The position numbers and the translations under genes were made by a program. A stretch of DNA of 64,000 bases from Enterobacter ludwigii. Its GTDB lineage: Bacteria > Pseudomonadota > Gammaproteobacteria > Enterobacterales > Enterobacteriaceae. The stretch covers positions 186,001 to 250,000 of the forward strand of contig CEFQ01000005.1 in the NCBI GenBank assembly GCA_900068845.1, read 5' to 3'. Below are positions 17,334-21,464 of this stretch, piece by piece (position 1 is the stretch's first letter; the number at the start of each line of letters is the position of its first letter). The notes beneath the pieces were generated by a model. It was not told where the DNA came from and made no database searches. It worked only from the letters and a program-made list of their open reading frames with translations.

Positions 17334-18209
17334 TCAGGAACCGCGTTTCGTGTTGTTACGACGGGAATTGTTGCTCACCACACCGTGACGTTTTACCGCA
17401 CGACGGATTTGGTTAGCTTTGGTGCGACGACGATCTTTTTCTACTGCGACTTTGGTTACTGTCTCTTCGGGCATACTGACTAAAGTGCGCAGATAGTTCA
17501 CTGCGGGTAATTCCATCTCGATCCAACCGCCGCGTGGCAGACCTTTCGGCAGCTGAATATCACCGTAGCGGACACGCATCAGACGACTTACCTGCACGCC
17601 CACCGCTTCCCACAGACGACGCACTTCGCGGTTACGTCCTTCGGTCAGCGTCACGTTGTACCACTGGTTGATCCCTTCGCCACCCGCAAACTTAATGGTT
17701 TTGAACGAAGCCGGACCATCTTCCAGTTGCACGCCTTTGCTCAGTTGACGAATCTTATCGTCATCCACTTCGCCAAACACGCGAACCGCGTATTCACGCT
17801 CAACTTCACGGCTTGGGTGCATCAAACGGTTAGCCAGTTCACCATCGGTGGTGAACAGCATCAGCCCGCACGTATTCACATCCAGACGACCGACGGCAAT
17901 CCAACGTGAACCCCGCAGACGCGGCAGACGATCAAACACGGTTGGGCGTCCTTCCGGATCGTTACGGGTACAGAGTTCACCCTCTGGTTTGTAATACGCC
18001 AGTACGCGACACACTTCGGTCGCCGACTCAGCGATGGACACCAGATGGCCATCAATACGGATTTTCAAAGATTTATCACTTTCGACGCGATCGCCAAGCG
18101 TCGCCAGTTTGCCGTCAACGCTGACACGTCCGGCAGAAATCATGGTTTCGATTTCGCGACGCGAACCGTGACCGGCACGCGCTAATACTTTCTGTAATTT
18201 TTCGCTCAT
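17334..18209 (-). CDS. rluB: 23S rRNA pseudouridine(2605) synthase RluB
   Basis: A 291-aa RsuA-family pseudouridine synthase. An S4 RNA-binding domain (about 1-60) precedes the catalytic domain with Asp110 in [11 protein letters not shown], and the C-terminal tail is very basic ([16 protein letters not shown]...), as expected for RluB. The frame is open 21 codons upstream; [19 protein letters not shown] with GAGG upstream is the family start. Confidence 0.95.
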
Positions 18210-19011
18210 GGAGCCTCGTTGTCGCCTTCCCAGGCGTCGTGGTAAGAAGAGGTACGATACAGGGATTACCAATTCCTATATCAGAATCTGTTACCGCTGC
18301 GCATCGCTTGTGCAATCTCAGGCGGCCCGCGATTTTACACTAACGCAAGTTTTGTTAACACCTTTTCCTTTGCTGCCGATAATAGATGGTCCGGCAAAGA
18401 GCGTCCGCTCGACCGTTCAGTATTAATCATTCGCCTAATTGATAGATCTTCTTCGTAAAGCGTACGTTCGACATTGCCAAGTCACTGAATTATTACCATT
18501 TGCCGCTAAGCTTTTTAGCATGAGCATTTTGCCAACTTTAGCCCCCTGATACATTAGCACCTTTCACGACTGTCTTAGCAGCAGAGCTTGCCAGGCTTAT
18601 GATCATTCACGAACGCAATAACTGCGTTAAAAGCAAAAAACAGCATATAAAACTATTTAACTGACTTAAATAAGGCTCACTTTAGTGATAAATCTAAATT
18701 GACAGTTAATTGGCACTACAGGTTGGATTAAGTCTGTATTTTTGTATTTTTTGATTAATATTAAATTTGATGAATTGTTCTTAAGAAAAAACCGTGTAAA
18801 ATTTAAGCCTGAAATCCAGTGTGTCGTCATAATAATTTAGCTTCAATTTACTATTTATATTCGTTCAAATAACAAAGCATTAACGAACACTGTGTAATTT
18901 TACTGATAATATAAACCGGCGCGCGCGGGATCTGACGCGTTTATTCATTCACGGAATGAATTTAATTCGCATGTCGAAAGTCTTCACCAGGGATTTTACG
19001 GACATGCATTA
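18210..19011. other. 802-bp AT-rich region without genes
   Basis: A long stretch with clearly higher A+T than its neighbours and no ORF that looks coding on either strand. In E. coli the large membrane protein gene yciQ sits between rluB and yciO; no trace of its sequence is recognisable. The left part should hold the rluB promoter and the right part that of the lipoprotein gene (AT-rich GATAATATAAA at about 18905). The rest is unexplained. Confidence 0.5.
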
Positions 19012-19683
19012 ATGAAGATCACAGCCATGAAAACCTCTCTGCTTTGGCCTGCGCTTGCTGCGCTGGCACTGAGCGGTTGTTCCGTGGGCCACACTGAGTA
19101 CAGTCGTACTGCGATGCAACACGTCGATATGAGCGTGACAGGCATTCCGACTGTGCTGGGTATGGGCATCCTCGGCACAACCATTCCTCTGACACCAGAA
19201 TACAGCCTCACGGCTGCACACGTGGCGAAAACCGCCGTGCAACGCGTTAAGGCTTATCATCCTTATTGCGACGTCGCGATTATTTACCATAAAAACAGTC
19301 CGGAAACGCTGGCTAAATTCCGCAGCGGCGCCATCGGGGAACCGATTAAAATGTACGGTTACAGCTTTATTTCCGCTATGCCGGTGGAATCAAGTGGCGT
19401 TAATTTAGCGCGTACCGCTATCACCAATAAATGGAATAAAAAACCTTGTATGGCCATGGCATCTAATGCTGGCGTCGTCCAGGGGATGTCAGGTGGTGCG
19501 GTATATAATGCTGACCAAACTATTGGTGGTGTCATCGTGGGTTACAGTCATGAAATATCCAACGTGCGCAGTAAGAAAGTCATCTTAAAAGATGTCTCTC
19601 TGTATATTCCGTACGGGGATTTTAAAAAATGGCTGGAATCAAATCTTGGTCAGACGCAGAACGCAACGCCTGACCATGCATAA
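19012..19683 (+). CDS. predicted lipoprotein with trypsin-like triad
   Basis: A 223-aa protein with a signal peptide ending in the lipobox LSGC (Cys23). The mature part has the order expected of a chymotrypsin-fold protease: His70 in SLTAAHVAK, Asp87 in YCDVAIIYH, and Ser160 in VQGMSGGAVYN, the GxSGG nucleophile motif. No PDZ domain follows. An alternative ATG at 19027 would drop five residues; the ribosome binding site is poor for both. It replaces yciQ between rluB and yciO. Its stop codon abuts that of convergent yciO with no spacer. I do not recognise a named family; the protease function is inferred. Confidence 0.8.
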   Translation: MKITAMKTSLLWPALAALALSGCSVGHTEYSRTAMQHVDMSVTGIPTVLGMGILGTTIPLTPEYSLTAAHVAKTAVQRVKAYHPYCDVAIIYHKNSPETLAKFRSGAIGEPIKMYGYSFISAMPVESSGVNLARTAITNKWNKKPCMAMASNAGVVQGMSGGAVYNADQTIGGVIVGYSHEISNVRSKKVILKDVSLYIPYGDFKKWLESNLGQTQNATPDHA

Positions 19684-20304
19684 TTACTGGAATGGGCGCG
19701 TGTCACCGACGCCTTCGCGCACCACCACCGGCGCATCGCTGGTGAGATCGATCACCGTGGTCGGCTGCTGACCCAGCGTGCCGCCATCGATGATCAGATC
19801 CACCAGCTTGCCAATACTGTATTGAATCTCTTCAGGATCCGATTCCGTAAAATCGTTGCCGGGCAACATCAGCGATGTCGACATCATCGGCTCGTTGAGG
19901 CGTTCCAGCAGCGCCAGCGCCACCGGATTGGACGGTACGCGCAGCCCAATGGTTTTACGTTTGTCATTCATCAAACGACGCGGTACTTCCTTGGTCGCCT
20001 TCAAAATGAAGGTGTAATTGCCCGGCGTGTTATTTTTCAGGATGCGAAACGCGGAGTTATCCACCTGCGCATAGGTCGACAGCTCCGACAAATCGCGGCA
20101 CATCAACGTGAAGTTGTGATTGCCATCCAATTGGCGAATGCGACAAATGCGCTCCATGGCATTTTTCTCTTCCAGGCGACAACCCAGCGCGTAGCCAGAA
20201 TCGGTTGGATAAACAATCACGCTGCCTTTGTTGAGATAATCGACGGCCTGGTTCACCAGGCGCGGCTGCGGATTGTCGGGATGAATGTGAAAATATTGAC
20301 TCAT
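19684..20304 (-). CDS. yciO: YrdC/Sua5-family protein YciO
   Basis: A 206-aa protein of the threonylcarbamoyl-AMP synthase fold. The Sua5-type KNAMERICRIRQ and SLMLPGNDFTES segments and the C-terminal VVREGVGDTRPF match YciO closely. YciO is a paralog of TsaC with RNA-binding features; its own role is not settled. It is 12 bp downstream of rnm, so the two are probably co-transcribed. Confidence 0.94.
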   Translation of the reverse strand: MSQYFHIHPDNPQPRLVNQAVDYLNKGSVIVYPTDSGYALGCRLEEKNAMERICRIRQLDGNHNFTLMCRDLSELSTYAQVDNSAFRILKNNTPGNYTFILKATKEVPRRLMNDKRKTIGLRVPSNPVALALLERLNEPMMSTSLMLPGNDFTESDPEEIQYSIGKLVDLIIDGGTLGQQPTTVIDLTSDAPVVVREGVGDTRPFQ

Positions 20305-21331: not shown

Positions 21332-21415
21332 ATGGCTATTTTGGGTACGCATTTAAATGGTTGGTGGCGCGATGATCCCTTTATCGGGCGACGTCGTCGT
21401 GCACAACTTGCGTAA
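21332..21415 (+). CDS. trpL: trp operon leader peptide TrpL
   Basis: A 27-codon leader peptide with tandem Trp codons (21362-21367) inside NGWWRDD. Stalling at these codons when tryptophanyl-tRNA is scarce should favour the antiterminator. E. coli TrpL has 14 residues; here 13 extra codons follow WWR and end RRRRAQLA, so the stop codon lies further into the attenuator region. Confidence 0.9.
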   Translation: MAILGTHLNGWWRDDPFIGRRRRAQLA

Positions 21416-21436
21416 CCGCAGTGCAGATTGATACCT

Positions 21437-21464
21437 AAGCCCGCCACCGAGCGGGCTTTTTTTT
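21437..21464 (+). terminator. trp attenuator (3:4 terminator)
   Basis: AAGCCCGC-CACCGA-GCGGGCTT is followed by a run of eight T. It starts 22 bp after the trpL stop and 50 bp before trpE. The stem is almost the same as the E. coli attenuator. Confidence 0.92.

Follow-up and report, generated by a model that had tools for sequence, protein, structure and literature searches.

A conserved trypsin-like lipoprotein of Erwiniaceae with a leader hairpin that is a candidate target of the small RNA ArcZ

The window analysed here, a 64,000 nt stretch of contig CEFQ01000005.1, carries a gene that is best explained as coding for a tethered, trypsin-like lipoprotein, with a 5′ leader hairpin that would place it under the control of ArcZ. 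We regard this explanation, taken as a whole, as probable. The protein is of a known kind but has an unusual anatomy, while the leader hairpin is previously undescribed and is the most surprising part of the analysis.

The open reading frame at 19012–19683 (plus strand, 223 aa) is a real gene and not a chance occurrence, as 54 relatives with 66–99% identity are found in genome contigs of Pantoea, Erwinia, Winslowiella, Mixta and near relatives. A previous description from the letters alone (hereafter, the sequence-only reading) gave these limits; the frame is present as described but its start is likelier to be the ATG at 19027, because this codon is ATG in 53 of 54 orthologous loci, compared with 7 of 54 at 19012. 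The protein would then probably be 218 aa in length, beginning MKTSLLWPALAALALSGC. In the 218 aa numbering the triad is H65/D82/S155; the numbers used below (H70/D87/S160) count from 19012. The coding sequence and a possible promoter are:

19027–19683, plus strand: coding sequence of the lipoprotein trypsin-like peptidase (frame opens at 19012; ATG at 19027 is the probable, conserved start)
18775–18802, plus strand: possible promoter, TTGTTC-16 nt-TAAAAT, suggested by the upstream alignment and conserved among orthologs

The candidate promoter was missed by a consensus promoter scan, and such scans were uninformative. The neighbouring genes rluB (17334–18272), yciO (19684–20304) and trpH (from 20317) are all on the minus strand, so that the lipoprotein gene is alone on its strand, and the order rluB-gene-yciO-trpH is shared by nearly all of the 54 loci. 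The stop codons of the lipoprotein gene and yciO abut at 19683/19684, and a minus-strand terminator-like stem (19647–19676) within the last codons of the lipoprotein gene is suited to ending yciO transcription. Upstream of trpE, the expected tryptophan operon leader is found at 21356–21464 (Rfam RF00513, 49.8 bits).

The sequence-only reading had the gene standing in place of yciQ, which in E. coli K-12 lies between yciO and rluB and on their strand. The interval is common to both, but replacement is not supported: the lipoprotein gene is on the strand opposite to where yciQ would lie, yciQ is present in only 9 of 198 genomes of the family (and absent from the source genome), and a second copy of the lipoprotein gene, 63% identical, lies elsewhere in the chromosome, in an unrelated setting close to lysA/lysR-like genes on a different contig.

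An AlphaFold2 model computed from 44 sequences (pLDDT 76, pTM 0.74) has the double beta-barrel of chymotrypsin-fold proteases. Foldseek with this model gave E 4.7e-9 to MarP and 790 PDB chains at E ≤ 0.001, and VIA-align gave Z 17.6–19.2 to V8/Spl and HtrA proteases, with the values for V8/Esp at Z 19.0 (rmsd 2.4 Å over 165–167 residues) and for Deg proteases at Z 18–19. HHalign against a DegS/DegQ alignment (Prob 97.6) aligned H70, D87 and S160 with H96, D126 and S201 of DegS; the His-Asp interval is 17 residues here versus 30 in DegS, and the N-terminal barrel appears shortened. Pfam and NCBIfam matches of the single window protein are weak, with Trypsin_2 scoring 16.9 bits (below the cut-off of 27.6), but the same Pfam model matches 10 of 11 diverse family members at E ≤ 0.01 (best E 2e-10). 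A family profile matches Spl (E about 1e-5), Do-like and MarP proteases in the PDB, and HtrA-type proteins in genomes. Taken together, the model and alignments make a trypsin fold with an assembled triad almost certain, which upholds the proposal of a trypsin-like protein.

The protein was also said to be small and without PDZ domains, and this holds: the 218 aa window protein gives only trypsin-type Pfam matches at E ≤ 1, and PDZ-type matches are absent in all 11 family members examined. Membership of the HtrA/Deg family is rejected, since the C-terminal PDZ domain is absent. An anti-phage system was considered and rejected, the PADLOC matches reflecting only a trypsin domain shared with larger proteins.

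The lipobox and, in order, TAAH, CDVA and GMSGGA are present exactly as had been claimed. The main features within the coding sequence are:

19069–19080, plus strand: lipobox LSGC, with Cys23 as the predicted lipidation site and Ser as the +2 residue
19219–19221, plus strand: codon of catalytic His70 (TAAH70), kept in 81/81 homologs, aligned with DegS H96
19267–19269, plus strand: codon of Cys86, kept in 82/82 homologs, probable disulfide with Cys146
19270–19272, plus strand: codon of catalytic Asp87 (CD87VAII), kept in 81/82 homologs, aligned with DegS D126
19447–19449, plus strand: codon of Cys146, an invariant alignment column, probable disulfide partner of Cys86
19489–19491, plus strand: codon of catalytic Ser160 in GMSGG, kept in 81/81 homologs, aligned with DegS S201

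These counts were made over about 80 homologs, distant phage and Vibrio members included, taking those with a letter at the column concerned. None of the close homologs has lost His, Asp or Ser, and the sole exception in the triad is an Asp to Gly change in an Aeromonas phage member. This relative, from phage phiA009 (L078:3893–4495), is annotated as a trypsin-like peptidase. The His-Asp-Ser spacing of 17 and 73 residues may resemble that of the enterovirus 2A proteases. The N-terminus (MKTSLLWPALAALALSGC) is a signal peptide with a lipobox ending in Cys, as in bacterial lipoproteins, and is conserved: Cys23 is kept in 78 of the 79 aligned homologs with a letter at that column, and the +2 residue is Ser in 81 of 88 lipobox-matched homologs and never Asp. 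By the general Lol rule, Ser at +2 predicts sorting to the outer membrane, making it likely that the lipoprotein is located there and faces the periplasm. The only cysteines of the window protein are the lipidated Cys23, Cys86 and Cys146, and since the last two are invariant and the only non-lipidated ones, a Cys86-Cys146 disulfide is likely.

At the DNA level the gene has no match in 5,426 E. coli genomes, in line with the statement that such a protein is not part of the E. coli set. Erwiniaceae loci are plentiful, but the distribution is wider than this: a third group, at about 40%, is found in other Enterobacteriaceae, a further group in Vibrio-like genomes, and relatives at 23–36% are carried by phages of Pantoea, Vibrio and Aeromonas, some of them annotated as protease. 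The window protein also matches PHROG 9683 (E 1.4e-23). In the phylogenetic tree the two paralogs form separate clades (support 99/99 and 96/83), each covering several genera, indicating that the duplication is old. Two tandem copies of the lipoprotein protease lie on a contig filed as viral (L083:5227–6627), which also carries an rpoD-like sigma factor, an Hsp20-like gene, ankyrin-type proteins and secretion-type genes, and looks like a plasmid rather than a virus. Broken or eroded copies of the family occur at four loci (L071, L056, L012 and L020); in Mixta mediterraneensis, for instance, the copy is frameshifted. No literature on this protein in Pantoea was found.

Conservation of the triad in a modelled trypsin fold makes it very likely that the lipoprotein is an active protease. 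If it were instead a catalytically dead or non-proteolytic trypsin fold with a binding or structural role, the short first barrel, the unusually small His-Asp spacing, the Gly in place of Asp87 in the distant phage member and the degraded copies (L020, L012 and L071) would all find a place, but hardly any of the roughly 80 members, whether from Enterobacteriaceae, Vibrio or phages, departs from the triad, GMSGG and the fold core, and we consider this improbable. Nor is it probable that the gene came from a phage or plasmid as an accessory, acting for instance in superinfection exclusion or in blocking entry at the outer membrane, and was later fixed in the chromosomes of Erwiniaceae. Such an origin would account for the relatives at 24–36% in phages of Pantoea, Vibrio and Aeromonas, the PHROG match and the tandem copies on the plasmid-like contig; yet nearly all of the 54 loci are at the same rluB/yciO housekeeping position, the two paralog clades are old, and there are no phage genes beside the lipoprotein gene in the window.

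An alignment of upstream regions revealed a conserved block about 20–60 nt before the start, corresponding to a hairpin that the sequence-only reading had overlooked:

18968–19008, plus strand: conserved 5′ leader hairpin, 41 nt, with an outer stem of 18969–18975 paired with 19001–19007
18985–18993, plus strand: CACCAGGGA in the hairpin loop, an exact 9 nt complement of the ArcZ seed UCCCUGGUG

The outer stem of the hairpin has seven pairs, its inner stem is weak, and its loop, TCACCAGGGA, is invariant in 37 sequences. Six of the seven outer-stem pairs have changed on both sides with pairing kept. Counted by alignment cells, 28 were changed on both sides versus 6.2 expected from shuffles (none of 500 was as high), although many rows are close relatives and the cells are not independent events, so that the six changed pairs are the sturdier measure. 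When the partner was slid by 1–3 columns, pairing dropped from 98% to 26–60%, and these controls gave 0–3 cells. The hairpin in the window folds at −15.3 kcal/mol (z −4.5). A covariance model detected one strong copy in the source genome (E 6.8e-13; next best 0.38) and one copy per genome in 56 of 60 genomes of the same genus, while none was found in 39 genomes sampled from other families, and no Rfam family matches it. The hairpin lies upstream of nearly all Erwiniaceae orthologs, always on the coding strand just before the start. Three orthologs (L070, L072 and L073) are without it, a fourth locus, L058, which is related to the eroded family copies, has an altered loop, and the second paralog and the phage members do not carry it. 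From this pattern of conservation, the hairpin very probably acts as a functional RNA.

The 9 nt complement covers 9 of the 10 invariant loop bases, while the stem drifts. ArcZ itself was found in the source genome (66.1 bits, cut-off 66) and in 10 relatives, and its seed UUUCCCUGGUGUUGGCGCA does not vary among the 11; the predicted leader-ArcZ duplexes range from −19 to −24 kcal/mol. A conserved complement of the seed and a gene for ArcZ thus occur in the same genome. A genome-scale survey of interactions (PMC11331407) found this seed domain in use in 330 of the 335 that involved ArcZ; it also places an upstream ArcZ site of flhDC within a predicted hairpin region, and it describes conservation as less clear for most ArcZ targets other than rpoS. 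In Pantoea ananatis, ArcZ is expressed (PMC6749038) and acts through RpoS (PMC7883899). The main text of a paper on the Erwinia amylovora ArcZ regulon has no mention of a protease or lipoprotein.

Only about 97% of shuffles fall short of the duplex energy that the whole leader reaches with ArcZ. The sequence CACCAGGGA followed by an ATG within about 40 nt occurs 20 times in the source genome, versus once for the reversed pattern, a count that is inflated by the Shine-Dalgarno-like AGGGA. As the match near an ATG is not rare, it is conservation that carries the ArcZ reading, not the match as such; a rough estimate for a 9-base match in a 10-base loop, given about 25 small RNAs, puts chance near 0.002. 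Several of the 20 places have CACCAGGGAAA-CACCATG just before the ATG, and are possible ArcZ targets.

On the complementarity and invariance of the loop, we propose with moderate confidence that the hairpin is read by ArcZ. The main rival is a CsrA (RsmA) site. The CsrA consensus is CARGGAU, and the loop offers CAGGGAU, with an A(N)GGA-like core, inside a hairpin. Invariance, however, spans all of TCACCAGGGA, which is beyond what CsrA needs and leaves the fixed TCACC part unexplained, a second conserved GGA is absent, the structure prediction has some of the GGGA in base pairs, and a change in L007 of the base after GGGA goes toward a longer pairing with ArcZ; CsrA is therefore the less likely reader, though one to be taken seriously. 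A DNA binding site, or a structural element unrelated to RNA regulation, is harder to reconcile with the data. The uninformative promoter scans leave room for it, but compensatory changes in the arms together with a fixed loop are the pattern expected of an RNA and not of an operator, and the copies all share a position on the coding strand shortly before the start, so that this is a distinctly unlikely alternative. If ArcZ is the reader, its effect is somewhat more likely to be repressive than activating, given a prediction that leaves the start region unpaired when ArcZ is absent.

In the explanation we prefer, the protein would be exported by Sec and lipidated at Cys23, and Ser at +2 would then probably direct it to the outer membrane, on the inner face. 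There it would cut periplasmic or envelope proteins by means of one trypsin-like domain, which carries the His-Asp-Ser triad and a single likely disulfide. With no PDZ domain, a tethered single-domain protease is to be expected, and not a DegP-like cage or a DegS-like peptide sensor. Control would be exerted after transcription through the dedicated leader hairpin, with the invariant loop probably pairing with ArcZ, a stationary-phase, oxygen-linked small RNA, as the regulator. As to its substrates, the most economical guess would be that the enzyme takes part in quality control or processing of the envelope, in stationary phase or under oxygen-linked conditions.

Trypsin-type envelope proteases known in enteric bacteria are mainly HtrA proteins with PDZ domains. 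Here, a conserved, PDZ-less and lipid-anchored putative protease is found in most Pantoea species, where two copies are frequent, and is common to their phages. The hairpin is a candidate regulatory RNA with a covarying stem and a fixed loop complementary to one named small RNA and, if this is true, it adds a conserved, lineage-specific ArcZ target. A broader view, which we hold only tentatively, is that an ArcZ-responsive hairpin in Erwiniaceae ties an outer-membrane mini-protease of reduced trypsin type to oxygen and stationary-phase signals, in a family common to phages of the same hosts.

Among known systems, the staphylococcal V8/Esp/Spl proteases also have a single trypsin-like domain and are the closest in size and superposition, but they are secreted, without a lipid anchor, have a longer His-Asp spacing and are only 16–21% identical. 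The HtrA/Deg proteases (DegS, DegQ and DegP) and MarP resemble the lipoprotein in the aligned DegS triad, in superposition (Z 18–19) and in its predicted envelope location; they are transmembrane or soluble, whereas the lipoprotein has a lipid anchor, a shorter first barrel and no PDZ domain. Gene 25 of Pantoea phage Kyle, annotated 'protease', and PHROG 9683 belong to the same family, with the lipobox, triad and GMSGG at 36% identity, but are phage-borne, between structural genes, and have no leader hairpin. The 5′ leaders of the ArcZ targets rpoS and flhD likewise contain a sequence exactly complementary to the ArcZ seed, whereas the putative site described here lies in the loop of a covarying, gene-specific hairpin.
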